The notes under the pieces: generated by a model | The model's database searches: none | Seen by the model: the letters and a program-made list of their open reading frames with translations, nothing else | Told to the model about the DNA's origin: nothing | Assembly (NCBI GenBank): GCA_902786965.1 | Contig: CADAEJ010000019.1 | Span: forward strand, 1-34,191 | DNA length: 34,191 bases | Direction of reading: 5' to 3' | Source: an uncultured Ruminococcus sp. | GTDB taxonomy: Bacteria > Bacillota > Clostridia > Oscillospirales > Ruminococcaceae | Part shown: positions 11,248 to 29,217 of the stretch, piece after piece | Numbering within the stretch: the first letter of the stretch is position 1 | Layout: every line of letters begins with the position of its first letter | Made by a program: the position numbers and the translations under genes

Positions 11248-13257
11248 ATGAATAAGAGGGTACTTTCATCAGTTCTTGCACTCGCACTTATCTTTGGCAG
11301 CGCCGCGGCAATTCCGAAGACCGCCATGCCTCACAGCGCGGGCATAACAGCAGCGGCTGAAACCTCGGGGGATTATGATTATAAGATCCTCTCTGACGGC
11401 ACAGCGGAGATCACAAAGTATAACGGCTCATGTGAAAACCTTTTCATTCCGTCAGCACTTGACGACAAAAAGGTCACAAGCATTGGTAAGCTTGCGTTCT
11501 ATAATCGTTCACAGATAAAAAGTATTACTCTTCCAAGAACTCTTACGAGCATCGGGGAAAGCGCATTTTATGGGTGTAGTTCGCTGCTGGAGATAAACAT
11601 ACCGAGCAGTGTCACAAGCATTGAAAGAGCATCATTTGCTGATTGCACAAGACTTGAAAGCGTAACACTTCCTGAAAATATCACAACCTTGGAAGATGCC
11701 ACTTTCTTTAACTGCAAAATGCTCACATCAATAAGCATACCTAATAGCGTCACGAGCCTAGGGAGCAATTTGTTCTATAATTGCAAAAATCTTGCCAAGG
11801 TGTCCATTCCGACTGCTGTTACAAGAATCGGCAATGGAGCGTTTAATGGCTCAAAGTGGCTTGTTGACAGGCAGGACGAAGATCCGTTGGTTGTTGTCAA
11901 TTCAATTCTGATCGATGCAAAAAAGTGCAGCGGTGATGTCAATGTAAATAAAGATGTGAAAGTAATAGGTGAGGGTGCATTTGAGAACAACAGAAATGTT
12001 AAAAGCGTTACGCTTCCCTATGGCATTACGATGATAGATAATAGAGCATTTTACTTATCTCAGATTTCGCAGATCAATCTTCCCGATACGCTTGTACGCA
12101 TCGGTGATAACGCATTTTTAGATTGTACAAAGCTTAAGGGCATGACCATTCCCAGGAGTGTTGAGAAAATAGGAAATGAAGCGGTTGGCTTTTATCGGAA
12201 AACCGATCCGACACAAGAGGAAATATACTGCGAAAAGATCCGTGGTTTCAAGATAACCTGCTTCAGTGGTTCTGCGGCAGAGACATATGCTCGAATGTAC
12301 GGCTTTGATTATGACTATGTGCTGCCGCCGGTAGTTCGCCTTGCAGGCAGCAGCAGATACGATACCGCGGCGGATATATCCAAAGCCACCTATGACAAGG
12401 CGGACACAGTCGTGCTTGCGTACAGTATGAACTACGCAGATGCACTTGCAGGCGTGCCGCTTGCGGCAAAACTCAAAGCACCGATACTGCTGACAAACAC
12501 AGACTCGCTTGACCCCGCAGCGCTTGCAGAGATAAAACGCCTCGGCGCAAAAGAGGTTTTGATCCTCGGCGGCGAGAATGCGATAAGCAAGCAGGTCGAG
12601 CAGAAACTTGAAAAAGAGAGTATTGGCACACAGCGTATCGCAGGTGCAACGCGCTTTGGTACAGCTTCACAAATCGCACAAAAGCTCAATACAAAGCCGA
12701 CAGATGTGTTCTTTGTCTACGGCTTTAACTATGCTGATGCGCTTTCCGTGAGCACGGCTGCGGCGCAGAAAAACGCACCGGTGATATATCTCACGACCAA
12801 TGGCGAGCTCAATGCCGATACCGCCGCTTACCTTGCCGAGCTTAAAGAGTACAACTGCGTTAAGAACGCCTACGTTATCGGCGGCGACAAGGTAATATCC
12901 GACGATATGATGAACAAGGCAGCTGCGGCACTCGGTCTTTCAAAAGCGACACGTATCGCAGGTGCAGACAGGTTTGAGACCTGCGTGGAGGTAAACAAGA
13001 CCTTCAAGGCATTTTTAACGGGCAATAAGCTTTGCATCGCAACGGGTATGGATTTCCCCGATGCGCTTGCAGGCGGCGTGTATGCGGCAAAGAACAGATC
13101 ACCACTGTTCCTTGTCAACGGCAAGGCTAAAACTCCTGCCCTCAACGATGCACAAAAGGCGTATCTTAAATCAGTAAAGATAGATTCGTACGCGGTGTTC
13201 GGCGGCACAGGCGCAGTTGAGGATAAGCATATCGAATCCATCGTCAGAAATAAATGA
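11248..13257 (+). CDS. Secreted BspA-type leucine-rich repeat protein with three cell wall binding repeats
   Basis: A 669-residue surface protein. The signal peptide is about 1-22. BspA/LRR_5-type repeats (about 45-350) show the recurring pattern of SIxxxAFxxCxxLxxIxIPxSV. Three CWB2-type (cell wall binding repeat 2) units follow from about 362 to the end, each with RIAGxxRFxTA or RLAGSSRYDTA and GxxFPDALA or NYADALA. In other Firmicutes CWB2 anchors proteins non-covalently to cell wall polymers, while BspA repeats bind host or bacterial proteins. An adhesin or bacterial-contact role is likely. GGGGGAA precedes the ATG. The LRR part is more AT-rich than the CWB2 part. Confidence 0.93.
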   Translation: MNKRVLSSVLALALIFGSAAAIPKTAMPHSAGITAAAETSGDYDYKILSDGTAEITKYNGSCENLFIPSALDDKKVTSIGKLAFYNRSQIKSITLPRTLTSIGESAFYGCSSLLEINIPSSVTSIERASFADCTRLESVTLPENITTLEDATFFNCKMLTSISIPNSVTSLGSNLFYNCKNLAKVSIPTAVTRIGNGAFNGSKWLVDRQDEDPLVVVNSILIDAKKCSGDVNVNKDVKVIGEGAFENNRNVKSVTLPYGITMIDNRAFYLSQISQINLPDTLVRIGDNAFLDCTKLKGMTIPRSVEKIGNEAVGFYRKTDPTQEEIYCEKIRGFKITCFSGSAAETYARMYGFDYDYVLPPVVRLAGSSRYDTAADISKATYDKADTVVLAYSMNYADALAGVPLAAKLKAPILLTNTDSLDPAALAEIKRLGAKEVLILGGENAISKQVEQKLEKESIGTQRIAGATRFGTASQIAQKLNTKPTDVFFVYGFNYADALSVSTAAAQKNAPVIYLTTNGELNADTAAYLAELKEYNCVKNAYVIGGDKVISDDMMNKAAAALGLSKATRIAGADRFETCVEVNKTFKAFLTGNKLCIATGMDFPDALAGGVYAAKNRSPLFLVNGKAKTPALNDAQKAYLKSVKIDSYAVFGGTGAVEDKHIESIVRNK

Positions 13258-18224: not shown

Positions 18225-18253
18225 TTGACTTTATTGCTAAAATGTGTTATTCT
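18225..18253 (+). promoter_or_regulatory. Promoter of the sensor-EAL fusion gene
   Basis: TTGACT (18225-18230), a 17-bp spacer and TATTCT (18248-18253). Confidence 0.8.
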
Positions 18254-18299
18254 AAAGTGGGTATATCCAATTCATTTTATGCGTTGAGGAGGTGTGCAG

Positions 18300-21200
18300 A
18301 TGGGCGAGCGAAGAAAGCGCTATGCTGTTTTGGTCGGACAAGCTGATGAAAGCTATCAGCAGCGTTTTATCACAGGCTTTTTGCGCAAGGCGTTTGCCGA
18401 TAATACCGATGTCTGCATATTCTCAATGTATCTGAAATATCAGGATACCTCCGTAAGAGAGCAGGCTGATTCAAACATCTTTTCGCTTATGGAGCCGTCT
18501 GCTTTTGACGGTGCTGTAATACTTAAAGACAGCATACAGACCGCGGGCGCTGCGGAGAGGATCGAAAAGCGCCTTAAAGAGAGCTTTGACAAGCCTGTAC
18601 TTGTCGTTGAGAAGCCGAGTGAATACTTCCCCTATGTCATCACAGACGGCTATCAGGCGATGTACGACATCGTAACGCATATGATAGTCAATCACGGGTT
18701 TAAGGATATTGGCTTTCTTTCGGGCAAAAAGTGGCATGAGCATTCTATACAGCGTATGCAGGCGTATAAAGACGCTATGCACGACCACGGACTCGAGGTA
18801 AATGAGGACAGGATAGTTCACGGCGACTTCTGGTATCAAAGCGGTGAAATGTGCGCAGAGCAGTATATCTCCAAGCAGCACAGCCTGCCCGAGGCAGTAG
18901 TGTGCGCAAATGACCAGATGGCTATCGGTCTTTGCAAAGCGCTTTCCGAACGCGGTATAAGAATACCCGAGGACGTTGCGGTCGCAGGTTACGATACAAC
19001 GTATGAGGGTCAGACAAGTCCTAAATCTCTCACATCTACACTTATCCCCGCCGATGAGATGGGCGAGTATGCCCACTATTTCCTGAAAACCAAGGCACAG
19101 GGTATCGAGCCCGAGCCTTACGATAAAATACCAACTCTCGTTTCGGGCGAAAGCTGCGGCTGCAAGGTGCATACCATCGCACAGTATTCGCTGCGCCGCG
19201 ACCACTGGGGCACACCTGTCTCCGAGGAGGGTTACAGCTCTATCTTCAATAAGATGGAGGAGAACCTTATTATGCAGCAGAATATGGAGGACTTCGCAGG
19301 TGCGCTGTACTCCTACTGCTATCAGCTGACAGGCGCGAAGAGTTTTCATATCTGCCTTACTAACTGGTGGAAGTATACCGAACAGGACGCAGGTCTGCAC
19401 CTGCGCAACGAGGGCTATCCCGATAAGATGACCTACGCCATCAGGTACAGCGGCGACCGAAAGAACAATAAGCTCTCCACCAACGAAACCTTTGAAACAA
19501 GGATAATGCTGCCCGACCTTTACGAAAGGCGCGATAAGCCGACTGCGTTTATCTTCACGCCGCTTTTCTTTGAGACCGAGTGCTTTGGCTATGCCGTTAT
19601 CAATTACGGTGATGAAGCGCGCAGCTATGACGAGGATTACCGCAGGTGGATAAACTCGGTGATGCGAGCCTTTGAAGCGCTGCGCAGAAATCTTGTCATC
19701 GCCAATATGCAGCAGATGATGAAAAAGTTCAAGGTCAGCAAATTCGGCGGCGTGAACAGCGCCTACGAAATGATGAGCGATGAGGAAAAGCTCGACCACG
19801 ATACCGTGGGACAGATCCTTGACAACAATCTGCTGACATATCACTTTCAGCCTATCGTCAGCGCAAAGGACGGCTCGATATATGCCTACGAGGCGCTTAT
19901 GCGGTCAAATACCGAAAGACCTATATCACCGCTGCGCATAATCAAGTTTGCGACTATGCAGGGCAGGCTTGAAGATGTCGAACGCGCGACCTTTGTAAAC
20001 GTGCTTTCCATAATAGATAAGAAAAAGCAGCGGCTGGGAAATGCAAAGGTGTTTATAAACAGCATACCCGGCGTGCGCCTGCACGATCCCGATAATAATG
20101 TCATCGAAGGGTACCTCAAAGCCAATTCGGAAATGGTAGTCGTAGAGCTTACCGAAGAGGCTGAATTGAGCGATGAAGAGCTCGAAAGGCTCAAGGACTA
20201 CCTCAAAAACCTCGGCATAGAGATCGCAGTTGATGACTACGGTACAGGCTACTCCAATGTGTCAAATCTTCTGCGCTATATGCCTAACTATGTTAAGATA
20301 GACAGAGCGCTTTTGTCGGGTATCCAGAGCGACAGCCACAAGCAGCACTTTGTCCGCGAGATAATAAGCTTTTGCCACGATAACGATATCCTCGCGCTTG
20401 CCGAGGGCGTTGAGACCTCAGACGAGCTTGCAACTGTCATTCACCTCGGGGCAGATCTTATACAAGGCTTCTATACAGGTAAACCGTCGCCGATGTTTGC
20501 AGGTGAGATAAACACCGCTGTACAAGGCGAGATAAAGACCTATTATCAGGAGTTCCTTGACGGAACTACCAAAAAGACCTACACCGCAGGCAAGACCAAC
20601 CGTATATCGCTTGGCACGCTCGTCAGGGACAGATGCACCGATATCGTCGTAGGTCAGGGAACTATGGTGTATAAGGATATCTCCATCATTGGCGCACCGT
20701 CGCTCCAAACGGATATCCACCTGCGCGTTGCCACGGGCTACATCGGCAGGATAAGCTTTGAGAATGTTTATCTCTCCAACGTCAAGGGCAGACCGTGTAT
20801 CGACATCGGCGAGAACTGTGATGTAACGCTTTCGCTGCAGGGCTCAAATGTCCTTGCAAATGGAGGCATCTGCGTGCCCGAAAGCTCGCGGCTGGTAATA
20901 GAGGGCGACGGCGATCTGAGCATATCCTGCAACAATCCCCAATACTACTGCATCGGCAACGAGCTTGACCAAAAGTGCGGCGAGATAGTCTTTGAGCAGG
21001 ACGGCATCATTGAAATACATTCTCACGGTATGAACGGCGTGTGCATCGGTGCAGGCAAGGGCGGAACTATCCGTATCAACAAAGGACAGTATAAGCTGCA
21101 CGTCACGGGCGATATGGGCGTGGGCATAGGCTCGGTTACGGACGACATCAAGCTGGAGATAAACAGCTGCAATATCCTCGGCGAGCTGTACGTCAGCGAG

Positions 21201-21653
21201 GGCGTGGCAATTGGCTCACACAGCGGCAGCGTTGATATATCTCTTGCACGAAGCTCATATAAGCTCGACGTAAACGGCAATACCATAGTCGGCATAGGAA
21301 CGATAAAGGGCGAAAGCGCAAGTATCTCAATGCTCGAGCTTAGCGGAGAGATAAGTATGCGTGCGGATAATTCCACAGGCTACGGCGCACTTGAAGGCTC
21401 AAGCCGCATCTATGTGGCATTTGCATCAATGCATATGGGCATATCGGGCAAGAACGCACTCGCGCTGGGCGGACGAAACGAGAACACCGACATCGTGTTC
21501 AACAATGTCGATACCCGCAGCGATGTGCATAACCTTATCGACAAGGACACCTATGCACCGCCCGAAAGGATACGCCTTATCAACGGCAGACGCACGTTTA
21601 TGGTCAACGATAAGGAAATAGAGCGCAAGCTCACATATGATTTTAACGATTAA
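18300..21653 (+). CDS. c-di-GMP phosphodiesterase: LacI-type sensor domain, EAL domain and C-terminal beta-helix-like domain
   Basis: A 1117-residue protein without signal peptide or membrane segment. Residues 1-290 resemble the ligand-binding core of LacI-type regulators (VVCANDQMAIGL, VAVAGYDTT) but lack a DNA-binding helix-turn-helix. A linker of about 200 residues, possibly GAF-like, follows. The EAL domain (about 515-740) is complete: EALMR from 531, FINS, ELTEE, DDYGTG with D645-D646, KIDR, EGVET and QGFYTG. Active c-di-GMP hydrolysis is therefore likely. Residues about 765-1100 form repeats rich in Gly, Ile and Val with GxGxG turns (for example CIGAGKGG and GIGTIKG). They look like a right-handed beta-helix normally found on surface polysaccharide-binding proteins. 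The start is the ATG behind GAGGAGG. The sensor probably binds a sugar. Confidence 0.88.
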   Translation: MGERRKRYAVLVGQADESYQQRFITGFLRKAFADNTDVCIFSMYLKYQDTSVREQADSNIFSLMEPSAFDGAVILKDSIQTAGAAERIEKRLKESFDKPVLVVEKPSEYFPYVITDGYQAMYDIVTHMIVNHGFKDIGFLSGKKWHEHSIQRMQAYKDAMHDHGLEVNEDRIVHGDFWYQSGEMCAEQYISKQHSLPEAVVCANDQMAIGLCKALSERGIRIPEDVAVAGYDTTYEGQTSPKSLTSTLIPADEMGEYAHYFLKTKAQGIEPEPYDKIPTLVSGESCGCKVHTIAQYSLRRDHWGTPVSEEGYSSIFNKMEENLIMQQNMEDFAGALYSYCYQLTGAKSFHICLTNWWKYTEQDAGLHLRNEGYPDKMTYAIRYSGDRKNNKLSTNETFETRIMLPDLYERRDKPTAFIFTPLFFETECFGYAVINYGDEARSYDEDYRRWINSVMRAFEALRRNLVIANMQQMMKKFKVSKFGGVNSAYEMMSDEEKLDHDTVGQILDNNLLTYHFQPIVSAKDGSIYAYEALMRSNTERPISPLRIIKFATMQGRLEDVERATFVNVLSIIDKKKQRLGNAKVFINSIPGVRLHDPDNNVIEGYLKANSEMVVVELTEEAELSDEELERLKDYLKNLGIEIAVDDYGTGYSNVSNLLRYMPNYVKIDRALLSGIQSDSHKQHFVREIISFCHDNDILALAEGVETSDELATVIHLGADLIQGFYTGKPSPMFAGEINTAVQGEIKTYYQEFLDGTTKKTYTAGKTNRISLGTLVRDRCTDIVVGQGTMVYKDISIIGAPSLQTDIHLRVATGYIGRISFENVYLSNVKGRPCIDIGENCDVTLSLQGSNVLANGGICVPESSRLVIEGDGDLSISCNNPQYYCIGNELDQKCGEIVFEQDGIIEIHSHGMNGVCIGAGKGGTIRINKGQYKLHVTGDMGVGIGSVTDDIKLEINSCNILGELYVSEGVAIGSHSGSVDISLARSSYKLDVNGNTIVGIGTIKGESASISMLELSGEISMRADNSTGYGALEGSSRIYVAFASMHMGISGKNALALGGRNENTDIVFNNVDTRSDVHNLIDKDTYAPPERIRLINGRRTFMVNDKEIERKLTYDFND

Positions 21654-21704: not shown

Positions 21705-22913
21705 TCAGCTGACCTCGCTGTTTATTCCGTAGTATGAATGTATAGTTGTGACGCTTGTGTATTCGCGCCCGAACCCGAGCGGGTTGCTGTCATCGTATAC
21801 CTCAAATGTGAACTGCACATCGTAGCCCACACATTCGCCTGTGTCCTTATAGCTTTCTTTAGACTTGAAAAGCATCCTGTCCGTGTCTGCAGCCTTTTTA
21901 TCAGCTGTTAACGGTATTGATCCGTCTTTATCACGTTCAGATGTCGTGGTAAGCCCGTCAAGAGTCTGCTGACTTGCTCCCTTGATGTGCGGTGTGAGCT
22001 TTATCGTCATCTTATCGTCCTTGATGCGCACACCGCCGGGTATTTTTACATCAATACCTTCAATGTACGCCGCATCGTAAAGCGTGTTGATCTTATAGGA
22101 TATAGATATATTGTCGCGCACCTCACGCGAGATAACAGTTCTCCCGTTAGTGCTTTCAAGCTCCTGCTTTGTCACAAAGTCCTTGCAGACGGAGGTGTTT
22201 GTCTCCCAGTCTATCGGCAGATTTTTGCCGTACTGCGAGAAAAACGATTCCGTGTATAAGCCACTCGGTACATTAAATCTGTAACCATACGTCTTTTTGC
22301 CGAGCCGAACGTGAATGTACCCGTTGTGTTCTGTGTCCTCACTGTATACCAGACTGTCCTCGCCGTCCTTGCGGTGTATTGCAAGCACGCGTATGTTATT
22401 CAGGGTGAATATCACGCCGCTGTCCGTTTTCATCTCTTTGACGTTCATAAGATACCTGCCAAGCGCCGCCGCCGTGCGCGAGTGTACATCAGGGTGCCTG
22501 CTTTCCTGCGTAACGTCAGCACATTCCGATTCATCGTATTTTACGCTGCTTTCGCTTATCGCGTAGAATTTCTTGTCATCGCTCACAAGCTGCGAGATAA
22601 ACTCGTTCGCCTCTTTATCAAGCCCTTTGGGCATTACCGTTTGCTGCTTTGCGCTGTCATTTTGCTGCTGTGATACAGGTGATATCTGCTGCTGTGATGA
22701 CAAAGCCTCGGGCTTGTGCGAACTGCTTATGTATAAAAATCCTGCTGCACCGACCGTCAGCGCGAGTGCCGCGAACACCAGCGCCCTGCCAAGATGCGAG
22801 AACCTGACCGATGCCTTAGCGGGCTTTTTCTCTATCGCCTCGTCAGCCGTCAGGTCTGTCGGCAGCTTGAGATTGCTCGCCATCGACTGCCTTATAAGCT
22901 CCTTTTCAGTCAT
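21705..22913 (-). CDS. Probable membrane-anchored anti-sigma factor with a large extracellular domain
   Basis: A 402-residue protein. A short cytoplasmic N-terminus (1-40) precedes one transmembrane segment (about 44-63), a Gln/Ser-rich linker and an extracellular domain of about 300 residues. Its beta-rich sequence resembles the DUF4179-type extracytoplasmic regions of sigma-linked proteins, though I cannot assign a domain with certainty. Its ATG overlaps the sigma factor stop by 8 bp, which is the main evidence for an anti-sigma role. The N-terminus would bind the sigma factor and the outer domain would sense an envelope signal. Confidence 0.7.
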   Translation of the reverse strand: MTEKELIRQSMASNLKLPTDLTADEAIEKKPAKASVRFSHLGRALVFAALALTVGAAGFLYISSSHKPEALSSQQQISPVSQQQNDSAKQQTVMPKGLDKEANEFISQLVSDDKKFYAISESSVKYDESECADVTQESRHPDVHSRTAAALGRYLMNVKEMKTDSGVIFTLNNIRVLAIHRKDGEDSLVYSEDTEHNGYIHVRLGKKTYGYRFNVPSGLYTESFFSQYGKNLPIDWETNTSVCKDFVTKQELESTNGRTVISREVRDNISISYKINTLYDAAYIEGIDVKIPGGVRIKDDKMTIKLTPHIKGASQQTLDGLTTTSERDKDGSIPLTADKKAADTDRMLFKSKESYKDTGECVGYDVQFTFEVYDDSNPLGFGREYTSVTTIHSYYGINSEVS

Positions 22914-23439
22914 CTTCCTTCCTCCTTGTGTACTTTCTGCGTATCAGCCTTACAGCGCGGTATAGCCGCTGCCTGACCGTGTTTTCGTTCATCTTCAGTA
23001 TCCTTGCAGTCTCCTCAAGCGGCAGGTCCATAAAGTAGTGCAGGTAAAACATCCTCTGCACATCAGCACTTTGCGAGCGTATCTCTCTGAACACCTGATC
23101 GAAAAGCTCGCTGTTTATCACCGCAAGCTCAATGTCCTCGCCGCTTGGAATATCGCCGATGTCTTCATCACTGCCTTTTGCCGAAAGGCTCACGCGCGCC
23201 CTGAGCCTTTGCATAGCGGTGTAGTAATGTGCAATACAGTGCTTTGCCGTACCTATGACGAAAGCCTGTTCGTCCTTTATCTGCTTTCCCTTTGAAAGCG
23301 CCTCAAACACCCGCGTATATGTCTCCTGATAGATGTCCTGTATATCACATATGTTTATGCATTTTGATGCTATGTATTTCAGCACGCCTTGCTTTGTGTT
23401 CTCGTAAAGCTGTTCAAAGCGCGGCTCTGTCTGCTCCAT
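22906..23439 (-). CDS. ECF-type RNA polymerase sigma factor
   Basis: A 177-residue sigma-70 family protein. Region 2 (about 10-75) includes DIQDIYQETYTRVFEAL for core binding and -10 recognition. Region 4 (about 120-172) has the helix-turn-helix LPLEETARILKMNENTVRQRLYRAVRLI that reads the -35 element. GGGAGGTGAGG precedes the ATG. It is coupled to a probable anti-sigma gene. No convincing autoregulatory promoter was recognised. Its regulon may include surface genes of this window, but that is only a guess. Confidence 0.93.
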   Translation of the reverse strand: MEQTEPRFEQLYENTKQGVLKYIASKCINICDIQDIYQETYTRVFEALSKGKQIKDEQAFVIGTAKHCIAHYYTAMQRLRARVSLSAKGSDEDIGDIPSGEDIELAVINSELFDQVFREIRSQSADVQRMFYLHYFMDLPLEETARILKMNENTVRQRLYRAVRLIRRKYTRRKEDD

Positions 23440-23637: not shown

Positions 23638-26600
23638 ATGACAAATGATCCGATCTTCAATAAAATAGCTGATGCTTTGCTTGCGGACTATACCAGCGTT
23701 TACTACGTCAATGCCGTAACGGATGAATACAGCTGGTATTCGTCCGATCCCAAGCTGCGCGCATTTCACGAAAAACACGGCGGCAGGGACTTTTTTGCCA
23801 ACGTTATCAGCAACTCGCAGGAGATGGTCTACGAGCCCGACAGGCAGACCTTCCTGCACGAGTTCAACAAAGAGAACCTTCTTGCGCAGATGAAAAGGGG
23901 AACGCTCAAGAACATCGAGTACCGCCTTATGATAGACGGCAAGCCCGTGTATCATTCACTGCGCCTTATCAGAGGCGTGAGGGATGACGATGATTATTTT
24001 ATCCTTGGTGTGCTGAATATCGACGATATGGTAAGGGCAAGGCATGAGGCTGAAAGGGCAGAGCAGGAGCGCGAGGTATTCAACCAGATAGCAGGCAGCC
24101 TTGCCGAGCATTACGATACCCTTTACTATGTTGACATACAGACCAACAAGTATTTTGAGTTCTCCTCGTCAGACGATTACAAGAGCCTTCAGATACCCAC
24201 ATCAGGTGACGACTTTTTCAAAGAGAGCCGAAAGAATATCAGAAAGCTTGTCCACCCCGATGATGTTGACAGAGTGGTAAAGCTCTTTTATAAGGAAAGA
24301 ATACTTCAAAACCTTGCCGATAAAAATACGGTAAAAGTGACCTATCGCCTTAACATCGGCGGAAAGCAGAGATACTACCGCACCTCACAGATATGGGCGA
24401 GCGACAAAAAGCACGTTATAATCGGTATCGAAAATATCGACAAGGAGATACAGACCGAGAAAAAGCTCAAAGAAACGCAGAAAAAGAACGTCACCTACGA
24501 GCAGATAGCCGAGAGCCTTGCCTCGCATTATGACGTTATCTACTATATTGATTCATCAAGCGGCAGGTATGCCGAGTTCACCTCCAACCACATCTACGGC
24601 AATCTTGAGCTTCAGGAAGAGGGTGTGGACTTCTTTGCCGATGCACAGCGCAATATCGTGCAGCTTGTCCACCCCGATGATGCTGAAAGGGTCGCAAAGG
24701 TGCTTGAAAGGGACTTCCTTATCTCCGCACTTGAAGATAACAAGCAGCTGCGCACCGACTACCGCCTTATAGTCAACGGCAAAACGCAGTATACAAGGTT
24801 CTCGGTCATATGGTCAAGCGACAAGATACATTTTATCATCGGCGTTGAAAACATCAATGCCGAGGTCAAAAGAGAAAAAGAGCAGGTCAAGGCGCTCGAT
24901 CAGGCAAACGACCTTGCAAGGCGTGACGAGCTTACAGGCGTGCGCAACAAAAAAGCATTCAGCGAGCTTGAGGTCACCGTTCAGCACAATATCGACAGCG
25001 GACTTGATTATTTCCCGTTCGCCCTTGTCGTGTTCGATATTAACAACCTCAAGCTTGTCAACGACTCGCAGGGTCATAAGGCAGGCGATGAATATATCCG
25101 CGCGGCTTGTCGGCTCATATGCAATGTTTTCACTCACAGCCAGGTGTTCCGCATAGGCGGTGACGAGTTCGTAGCGTTCCTTGGCAGCGGTGATTTCTTT
25201 GACAGGATAGCTCTGCTCGAAAAGCTCAAAACCACAGTCAGAGAGAACCTCATCAACGGCGAGGGCGCAGTTGTCGCGGCAGGTATGGCTATCTTTGAAA
25301 GGGATATGGACGATAAGTTCTCCGATGTTTTTGAGCGCGCCGACAGTAAGATGTACGAGGACAAGAACAGGCTCAAAGAGGTATTCCGCACAGGCGTTAA
25401 TATGCCCGAAAAGCACAGGATAGATGCCGCTATACCGACCGAGCGCAGAACAAAGCTCGAGGGCTTGTTCAAAGCATTCAGCATCATTTCCGAGGGCACA
25501 TACGTCTACCTTTGCGATATGAAATATGACTACTCCATATGGTCAAAGACCGCAGTCGATGCCTTTGGTCTGCCGGCAGAGCGTATGTACAGGGCAGGCG
25601 ATATATGGGAGGAGCATATCCACCCCGACGACCGCGAGACCTACCGAAACGGTATCAATGATATCTTCACAGGCAATTCCACAGGTCACGATATGCAGTA
25701 CCGCGCAAGACGTGTGAACGGCGATTATGATGTTTGCACCTGCCGCGGAATAGTCCTGCGTGACGACAGTGGCGCTCCCGACTATTTCGGCGGAGTTATC
25801 CGCAACCACGATATCCTCGGTCATATCGACGAGCTTACAGGTCTGCGCAATCAGTACGGCTTCTTTGAGGACCTCAAGACCGTGCTTGAAACGACCGTGC
25901 CCGTTCGCGTGTTCATGGTCGGCATAAGCAGATTTTCCGAGATAAACGAGCTTTACGGCTACCATTTCGGCAATAACGTGCTTCAGCGCTTTGGCAGACT
26001 TTTGTTTGAACACGTTGCAAATGACGGCAGCGCATACCGCCTTGACGGAACAAAGTTTGCCATAATCAGCAGCACTCAAACGCTGAATGAAATGGAAGAA
26101 AAGTATGAAGACCTGCGCAGCTTCTGCCGTGAGAAATTCTATTCTGATGATAAAAAGCTTGTGCTTGAGCTTAACGCAGGCGCGATAAATGTTGACTACT
26201 TCAACATCGACTACCAGACTATCTATGCCTGCCTCAACTTTGCCTATGGTGAATCAAAGATAAAGGCACAGGGCGATGCTGTCGAGTTCACCAACGGACG
26301 CAGCAAGGACAGCAAGCGCCATATCGAGCAGCTCCACACGATACGCGATTCTATAATACGCGCGTTCCGCGGATTTTTCCTGCTCTTCCAGCCCGTTGTC
26401 GATCCTCACGCACACAGACTTGTCGGCGGCGAGGCGCTCCTGCGCTGGCAGAATGAAGAGTACGGCGTTGTTCCGCCCGACAGCTTTATCCCCGTGCTTG
26501 AAAGAGATCCGCTGTTCTGCGGTCTGGGCGAATGGGTACTGAAAATGTCGGTCAAGGCAGGAAAGAAAATGCGCGAGATCTACCCCGATTTCGTGATGAA

Positions 26601-27087
26601 CGTCAACGTTTCCTATTCGCAGCTCGAAAAGCCCGATTTTGTCGATATGGTCCTCAATATCCTCAAAAAGTATGACTATCCGCCCGAGAACCTCTGCCTT
26701 GAGATCACCGAGCGATGCAGACTGCTCGACTTTGATCTGCTCAAAAACATCTTCGTCAACCTGCGCGGCAGGGGAGTAAAGATCGCCCTTGATGATTTCG
26801 GTACGGGATTTTCCTCAGTCGGCTTGGTCAAGAATTTCACATTTGACGTTATAAAGATCGACCGCAGCTTCGTGCGTAAGATAGAGGACGACGAAACCGA
26901 GAGAAAGCTGCTTGAAAGCTTTATGGAACTTGCGGGCATCTTCAGCGCAGCCGTCTGCGTCGAGGGTATTGAAACCGCACAAATGCGCGATATAATCAGA
27001 AACTACAACGTCAATAGTATGCAGGGCTATTACTTTGCAAAGCCGCTGCCGTTTGACGAATTCATTGATTGGGAGTATAAGGAATGA
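23638..27087 (+). CDS. Multi-PAS, dual GGDEF, EAL c-di-GMP turnover protein
   Basis: A 1149-residue cytosolic protein. Three homologous PAS-like units of about 130 residues occupy 1-415. Each begins FxxIAxxLAxxYxxxYYV and ends IIGVENI or similar. The first GGDEF domain (about 425-590) has an intact RIGGDEF site (507-511) and NLKLVND. A fourth PAS (about 605-725) has HPDD. A second GGDEF fold begins DELTGLRNQ, but its signature is DGTKF (803-807), so it should be inactive. The EAL domain (about 900-1140) is complete: EALLR from 932, NVNVS, EITE, DDFGTG, KIDRSF, EGIET and QGYYFAKP. It can probably both make and break c-di-GMP. GGAGG precedes the ATG. Confidence 0.93.
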   Translation: MTNDPIFNKIADALLADYTSVYYVNAVTDEYSWYSSDPKLRAFHEKHGGRDFFANVISNSQEMVYEPDRQTFLHEFNKENLLAQMKRGTLKNIEYRLMIDGKPVYHSLRLIRGVRDDDDYFILGVLNIDDMVRARHEAERAEQEREVFNQIAGSLAEHYDTLYYVDIQTNKYFEFSSSDDYKSLQIPTSGDDFFKESRKNIRKLVHPDDVDRVVKLFYKERILQNLADKNTVKVTYRLNIGGKQRYYRTSQIWASDKKHVIIGIENIDKEIQTEKKLKETQKKNVTYEQIAESLASHYDVIYYIDSSSGRYAEFTSNHIYGNLELQEEGVDFFADAQRNIVQLVHPDDAERVAKVLERDFLISALEDNKQLRTDYRLIVNGKTQYTRFSVIWSSDKIHFIIGVENINAEVKREKEQVKALDQANDLARRDELTGVRNKKAFSELEVTVQHNIDSGLDYFPFALVVFDINNLKLVNDSQGHKAGDEYIRAACRLICNVFTHSQVFRIGGDEFVAFLGSGDFFDRIALLEKLKTTVRENLINGEGAVVAAGMAIFERDMDDKFSDVFERADSKMYEDKNRLKEVFRTGVNMPEKHRIDAAIPTERRTKLEGLFKAFSIISEGTYVYLCDMKYDYSIWSKTAVDAFGLPAERMYRAGDIWEEHIHPDDRETYRNGINDIFTGNSTGHDMQYRARRVNGDYDVCTCRGIVLRDDSGAPDYFGGVIRNHDILGHIDELTGLRNQYGFFEDLKTVLETTVPVRVFMVGISRFSEINELYGYHFGNNVLQRFGRLLFEHVANDGSAYRLDGTKFAIISSTQTLNEMEEKYEDLRSFCREKFYSDDKKLVLELNAGAINVDYFNIDYQTIYACLNFAYGESKIKAQGDAVEFTNGRSKDSKRHIEQLHTIRDSIIRAFRGFFLLFQPVVDPHAHRLVGGEALLRWQNEEYGVVPPDSFIPVLERDPLFCGLGEWVLKMSVKAGKKMREIYPDFVMNVNVSYSQLEKPDFVDMVLNILKKYDYPPENLCLEITERCRLLDFDLLKNIFVNLRGRGVKIALDDFGTGFSSVGLVKNFTFDVIKIDRSFVRKIEDDETERKLLESFMELAGIFSAAVCVEGIETAQMRDIIRNYNVNSMQGYYFAKPLPFDEFIDWEYKE

Positions 27088-27194: not shown

Positions 27195-27266
27195 GCAGAT
27201 ATAGTATAGCGGTCATTACTCCAGTTTCCCAAACTGGTGATGCGGGTTCGACTCCCGTTATCTGCT
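27195..27266 (+). tRNA. tRNA-Gly (anticodon CCC)
   Basis: The acceptor stem is GCAGATA/TATCTGC and the anticodon loop TTCCCAA on a CCAGT/ACTGG stem gives anticodon CCC. The T arm is GCGGG-TTCGACT-CCCGT. The discriminator is T and no CCA is encoded, unlike the two tRNA-Gln genes. Confidence 0.94.
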
Positions 27267-27273
27267 TAAAGCC

Positions 27274-27307
27274 AAAGCCCGTAAACACGTCGTTTGCGGG
27301 CTTTTTT
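27274..27307 (+). terminator. Terminator of tRNA-Gly
   Basis: A 13-bp stem (27274-27286 with 27292-27304, one G-T pair), a 5-nt loop and a T6 tract. Confidence 0.9.
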
Positions 27308-27392
27308 GCGTGTCAAAATCTGCACTTGGTCTTTATTTGGTCTTTGTTTTTACATCTCACTGTACTGAGAATGTCAAGAATTCAGCGCATCT

Positions 27393-27428
27393 GCGCACTT
27401 TGCGCCTGTGATACAAGTGCGTCTTTTT
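27393..27428 (+). terminator. Plus-strand hairpin with T tract
   Basis: GCGCACTT (27393-27400) pairs with AAGTGCGT (27415-27422), followed by C and T5. It lies in the 218-nt gap between tRNA-Gly and the recombinase; that gap also holds a direct repeat TTGGTCTTT and another small hairpin (27464-27482). A terminator left by a lost gene is possible. Confidence 0.5.
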
Positions 27429-27484
27429 GGCTTTTATTTTAATTAAAAAAATATGAACAATGCCCCGTGAGCTCAAGACGGGTA

Positions 27485-29217
<1,733 letters not shown>

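Follow-up and report, generated by a model that had tools for sequence, protein, structure and literature searches.

EAL phosphodiesterases of cyclic di-GMP (c-di-GMP; PF00563), of which RimA and DosP are the nearest named families to the protein described here and for which structures such as that of BlrP1 are available, are as a rule explained by what precedes the EAL domain. LacI/GalR regulators such as CcpA, AscG and PurR carry a ligand-binding core together with a helix-turn-helix (HTH) and act by binding DNA. We analysed a stretch of 34,191 nucleotides (the window), contig CADAEJ010000019.1 of an uncultured Ruminococcus sp., in which a gene at 18300-21653 on the forward strand draws on both systems. 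The protein shares the complete EAL domain and catalytic residues with the known phosphodiesterases, whereas it adds a LacI-type sensor and, behind the EAL domain, a predicted beta-solenoid of about 345 residues; it shares the ligand-binding core with the LacI/GalR regulators, but lacks the HTH and has the EAL domain as its output. Here it is the large structural domain behind the EAL domain, called the C-terminal domain (CTD) below, that stays constant, and the sensors can be exchanged. No description of an EAL domain with a beta-helix, a solenoid or a LacI sensor was found in searches of open-licence papers, and to our knowledge c-di-GMP signalling in these gut bacteria has been little studied. 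The fold class of the CTD, its fusion to the EAL domain and the catalytic set are well supported, and ligand gating is likely by homology. The features of the gene are the following, with residue numbers, as throughout, counted from GTG 18294 (subtract 2 for numbering from ATG 18300).

18225-18253, + strand: candidate sigma-70-like promoter, TTGACT-17-TATTCT, 9 of 12 matches
18287-18292, + strand: ribosome-binding site AGGAGG, from sequence reading
18300-21653, + strand: whole gene of 1117 amino acids, with LacI-type sensor, GAF-like segment, EAL domain and predicted beta-solenoid
18315-19193, + strand: LacI/PBP-type ligand-binding core without HTH, residues 8-300, from Pfam, PDB relatives and Foldseek
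19251-19733, + strand: GAF-like segment and long C-terminal helix, residues 320-480, from predicted secondary structure only
19818-20486, + strand: EAL phosphodiesterase domain with intact catalytic residues, residues 509-731, from Pfam and alignments
20508-21650, + strand: CTD, a linker helix (741-757) followed by a beta-solenoid (about 761-1104), from predicted structure and coil motifs

The CTD stands directly behind an EAL domain in 57 of the 59 examined frames with a CTD match, and the remaining two (L062 and L063) are secreted-type relatives. These frames are those of the fetched loci (L numbers), a subset of all CTD matches in the genome searches; the window's gene and the gene of L010/L039 are each counted twice among them, and a contig end truncates L020. 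In the 54-row alignment, which leaves out L009, L010 and L020, the ends of the EAL and CTD profiles are separated by 3-7 residues in 53 rows and by 68 in L058. The bias of searching with the CTD was removed by a CTD-blind search, in which the LacI-GAF-EAL part alone was the query against 29 genomes of the genus (E<=1e-60). This gave 63 matches, four of which stop before the EAL domain, and a CTD match lies 9-27 nucleotides downstream in all of the 59 that reach the EAL end. In the reverse comparison, 10 of 69 CTD rows had no partner in the LacI-GAF-EAL search, the EAL domain being too distant for the cut-off or the row a fragment; G065 (L055), the only one of the ten inspected, has an EAL domain. 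The window's own genome holds a single CTD copy and about ten more distant EAL regions without a CTD. Because the close EAL matches all carry the CTD and the distant ones are without it, the CTD marks one EAL subfamily. The recurrence of the fusion in many assemblies (57/59 and 59/59) also rejects an assembly artefact, that is, separate proteins joined by an assembly error. With the CTD as a single query, 95 of 396 genomes of the family gave a match, and these belong to 22 of 126 genera; at the level of the class the CTD profile matched 16 of 391 genomes, and at that of the phylum 3 of 398. Twelve CTD loci came from named records, namely six titled Lachnospiraceae, four Oscillospiraceae or Ruminiclostridium and two Clostridiales, and six of the twelve records were titled from deer, cattle or goat gut.

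The part in front of the EAL domain is variable. In the 54 rows, 20 proteins have a LacI-GAF front directly before the EAL domain, 6 have LacI and GGDEF, 7 another long front and 21 a short front. In the LacI-GAF group, L044, which is cut, was assigned by its GAF part, and several more are cut inside the LacI core; in the LacI and GGDEF group, Pfam found GGDEF in five of the six, and L023, also cut, was assigned by spacing. The Pfam scan covers 21 of the 54 rows; among the other long fronts, GGDEF was over the cut-off in L052, L053 and L058, below it in L059 and absent in L054 and L060, while L057 is outside the scan. The GGDEF motif is intact in one of the seven read (L051). In a maximum-likelihood tree of the EAL-CTD part, one branch (100/98) separates the 21 short-front proteins from all others, and the architecture groups can be explained with four label changes. 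With a midpoint root, which serves for drawing only, the tree reads as a loss of GGDEF and a later loss of LacI-GAF with EAL-CTD kept. The CTD is kept in the 21 short-front proteins, where LacI, GAF and GGDEF are all absent. Judged from these alignments, EAL-CTD is the constant unit with an exchangeable front, and the CTD goes with the EAL domain and not with the sensor. In L057 (2-2161, - strand), an EAL-CTD gene without a LacI-type core has a frame with such a core directly behind it, and this neighbouring frame may supply the sensor.

The EAL domain was found by Pfam at residues 509-731 (PF00563, 7e-49, 166.8 bits against a cut-off of 31.3), whereas the NCBIfam matches shown were all far below their curated cut-offs, the best reaching 99.4 against 782 bits. 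E533, N589, E618, D647, D648, K668, E704, E707 and Q724, nine positions that we take to be the metal and catalytic residues, are identical in all 54 rows. The LacI core was matched by Peripla_BP_3 (131-288, 1e-28) and Peripla_BP_1 (57-236, 4.9e-16), its PDB relatives by sequence are CcpA, AscG and PurR, and Foldseek also supports it. R154, N206 and D234 of this core, presumably ligand contacts in LacI proteins, align with identical residues of AscG and are invariant in the eight LacI-bearing rows of alignment A2. Because the nine catalytic positions are kept and the LacI contact residues are conserved, a ligand-gated, active phosphodiesterase is expected. Between the core and the EAL domain, the full-length model has an alpha/beta segment from 331 and a long helix at 447-481, which a first-pass annotation of the same DNA had missed. 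The segment is named GAF-like only from the order of its predicted secondary-structure elements (about 325-481); it is conserved among nine sequences, while residues 320-480 gave no Pfam match and only chance-like matches by profile against the PDB (best E 0.18). The own genome encodes two LacI-GGDEF proteins, L002 and L008, which have the LacI core in common with the window protein but GGDEF instead of EAL as output, and may answer similar ligands by the opposite reaction.

The open reading frame extends over 18294-21653 on the + strand, with 1119 amino acids if read from GTG. ATG 18300, with the stop at 21653, is likely the better start because AGGAGG lies 7 nucleotides ahead of it. The promoter candidate is weak, as two promoter-like sites were found in the region against a shuffle mean of 1.3. 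No N-terminal HTH is encoded in frame, since the frame opens only two codons before GTG and the LacI core begins near residue 8. Neither a membrane segment nor a signal peptide is visible in the whole protein by hydropathy scan and inspection of the N-terminus, which is charged; the highest 19-residue mean hydropathy is 1.34, at residue 418. The protein thus appears to be cytosolic, as far as can be read from its sequence. The first-pass annotation had described a protein of 1117 residues starting at 18300, with a LacI-type core without HTH, a complete EAL active site and a C-terminal beta-helix in this order, and without a signal peptide or membrane segment, and all of these points agree with our results. 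On the opposite strand, an open frame at 18471-19844 overlaps the gene.

The CTD (residues 739-1119), folded together with 12 relatives, was predicted as a beta-solenoid with a short N-terminal helix followed mostly by strands (predicted local distance difference test, pLDDT, 92.2; predicted template modelling score, pTM, 0.87). A coil motif occurs at 916, 943, 971, 999 and 1056, with a spacing of 27-28 residues except for 57 between the last two. In an autocorrelation of the CTD, lag 28 stayed below the permutation limit and only lag 2 exceeded it, so that no coil length is singled out; because this periodicity test is weak, the solenoid claim rests on the structure model. The Foldseek search of this model against the PDB was led by the exopolygalacturonase 3jur, followed further down by an alginate lyase, tailspikes, PfbA, AlgG and a few others. 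Most of the top matches are right-handed beta-helices, but the matches themselves are weak (best E 0.022). Foldseek against viral models gave no match at E<=0.001, the CTD profile against PDB sequences gave chance-like matches only (best E 0.22), and Pfam had no real match for residues 740-1119. From the model the CTD is therefore apparently of the beta-helix class, with no close relative among solved structures, and the Pfam copy used has no real match for this domain.

Sequence relatives of the CTD were found in three proteins without EAL, L062, L063 and L064, which the CTD profile matched at E 6.9e-42, 6.9e-11 and 9.7e-10, whereas none of 63 controls, made by shuffling or reversal, did better than E 0.035; L064 was matched only with the HMMER filters off or in the genome search. 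All three carry PF18889 (Beta_helix_3) repeats, and L062 and L064 start, by eye, with a hydrophobic, signal-peptide-like segment, L063 being cut by a contig end. The CTD can be aligned with them over about 90-190 residues (alignments for L062 and L063), but L062 and L064 have regular GIGGG repeats, while the CTD has no signal, is linked to EAL and gave no PF18889 match in the window protein up to E 10 or in 13 CTDs up to E 1. PF18889 occurred in 8 of the 21 genomes of the relatives search, in 4 of them above the cut-off; the own genome and all 14 controls were negative. A profile search of one EAL-free relative against the PDB gave nothing useful. The profile matches to the three proteins relate the CTD by sequence to modules of secreted-type PF18889 proteins, and we infer that recruitment went from outside the cell to inside. 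L062 (1-6693, - strand) itself encodes a secreted-type protein of at least 2231 amino acids with six CTD-like modules. In a survey of fibrillar adhesins, PF18889 is given as a stalk domain, and as one of those without a known adhesive domain alongside (PMC8286594). The bactofilins are cytosolic, polymerising proteins with a right-handed beta-helix. Their use of such a helix as a scaffold (PMC12448750) offers a model for assembly inside the cell; the CTD, with about three times their length, differs by its fusion to EAL. Membership of the CTD in the bactofilins was rejected, as Pfam gave no bactofilin match up to E 10.

We consider it slightly more probable than the contrary that the window protein is a soluble, ligand-gated cytosolic c-di-GMP phosphodiesterase whose obligate solenoid serves to order EAL domains in dimers or larger assemblies, or to dock the enzyme on a partner. 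A small intracellular ligand, probably a sugar or nucleoside by homology, would close the LacI-type core, and the change would run via the GAF-like segment and the long helix to the EAL dimer and set the rate of hydrolysis. The rigid solenoid, which is joined to EAL by a short helix in the predicted fold, would then organise the dimers or assemblies or dock on a partner, so that c-di-GMP may be removed at one place or within a complex. The docking or assembly role leads because the CTD follows EAL whatever the front, its structural residues are kept and it is akin to stalk domains. If so, local control of c-di-GMP and the use in signalling of a structural fold from outside the cell could both be tested on this gene. 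A bolder form of this proposal, that a beta-helix family of adhesin stalks moved to the cytosol as the obligate partner of EAL, where ordered, bactofilin-like arrays or stacked dimers with swappable sensors localise c-di-GMP destruction, is speculative and in our estimate rather unlikely. Several results weigh against the docking or assembly role. The CTD model had no PDB match at E<=0.001 by Foldseek, the full-length model (pLDDT 83.5, pTM 0.47) does not fix the arrangement of the domains, and the 12 flanked loci, compared by eye from sizes and first residues, had no neighbour gene common to all. Two charged positions, E746 and R770, do not vary among the 13 closer CTD rows and three more, D795, E840 and R1099, hardly do, so that the CTD may hold a functional site. 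Tryptophan is as rare in EAL (0.05%) as in the CTD (0.06%), so its scarcity is no speciality of the CTD and only weak evidence against glycan binding. In the eight LacI-type rows, the GAF-like segment and the CTD diverge equally fast (41.7% and 40.8% identity), and fast divergence thus does not single out the CTD.

The solenoid could instead be a reader of glycans, binding a cytosolic glycan (glycogen, an imported oligosaccharide or a polysaccharide intermediate) and tuning hydrolysis, so that the enzyme would answer two carbohydrate inputs. The weak fold matches to GH28, PL6 and tailspike proteins, which act on polysaccharide, the charged positions just named, the 15 Tyr and 7 Phe of the window protein's CTD and the higher identity of the CTD's first half (820-929; 44.5% against 26.2% in the second half), which leaves room for a site, all speak for it. 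We nevertheless regard it as improbable, since the CTD columns at least 85% identical in the 54 rows are Gly, Ile, Leu, Val, Pro and Ala with Y763, N852 and C959; no Asp, Glu, Arg, Lys or His column, and no aromatic one but Y763, reaches this level. In addition, the short-front proteins keep the CTD without a sugar sensor, and the repeat in its relatives is listed as a stalk and not an adhesive domain. The pattern of conservation and divergence is more that of a structural element than of a single conserved site for sugar, and as a reasoned choice a role in structure, docking or dimer organisation is favoured over a glycan reader. Of the functions suggested in the first-pass annotation, scaffolding or oligomerisation is the better fit, while glycan binding finds little support from the Gly and aliphatic columns and the sensorless short fronts, and its two carbohydrate inputs are unsupported. 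An active polysaccharide lyase or hydrolase (GH28, PL) is likewise disfavoured by the lack of a charged column at this level, though the charged positions in the 13 rows weaken this argument.

Next after docking or assembly ranks an allosteric brake or cap, in which the solenoid would lie against the EAL domain of its own chain and control the active site, with neither partner nor assembly. The very short EAL-CTD spacing and the strict co-occurrence in the genus would suit such an arrangement, but a fixed interface would not be expected to vary faster than EAL, as the CTD does (median identity 33.4% against 55.0%, with EAL higher in 1430 of 1431 pairs), and the low pTM of the full-length model gives no confident interdomain arrangement; we hold this explanation to be unlikely. 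That the protein is a c-di-GMP receptor of the LapD or FimX kind, with the CTD as its output domain, seems very improbable. The PDB and Foldseek matches do include the EAL domains of LapD and FimX, and an output domain C-terminal to EAL would be in keeping with a receptor, but the EAL domains of receptors are degenerate, whereas the nine catalytic positions are kept here throughout.

The own genome (91.39% complete) gave no PilZ match, with 5 of 14 controls positive, and no flagellin match, with 4 of 14 controls positive; in the search for c-di-GMP-I riboswitches no control was positive, and the result carries no information. A second c-di-GMP protein, with GGDEF (two stretches), PAS and EAL and without a CTD, is encoded in the window at 23638-27087 (+ strand), and a gene of equal length stands at the same place in L039. 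Between the two c-di-GMP genes, at 21705-23439 (- strand), two adjoining genes convergent with the EAL-CTD gene encode a sigma-70 region 4 protein and a protein of 402 amino acids without a Pfam match. A sigma-like gene followed by a gene for 402-420 amino acids, as in the window and L039, was also recognised by size and first residues near L042 and L043, after the EAL-CTD gene in L043 and further down in L042; these two loci belong to Lachnospiraceae bacterium AC2031 (L043) and NE2001 (L042). The short-front loci L047 (9075-11257, - strand), L048 (7640-9819, - strand) and L049 (7620-9820, - strand) have a common neighbour pair on the other strand, of about 500 and 223-235 amino acids, possibly a two-component pair from the first residues. 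Elsewhere in the window, 11248-13257 (+ strand) encodes a protein of surface type, in which BspA-like leucine-rich repeats are combined with three CWB2 cell-wall-binding stretches. At 27195-29211, a tRNA-Gly precedes genes for a DUF4368 protein and a serine recombinase, an arrangement that looks like the border of a mobile element.

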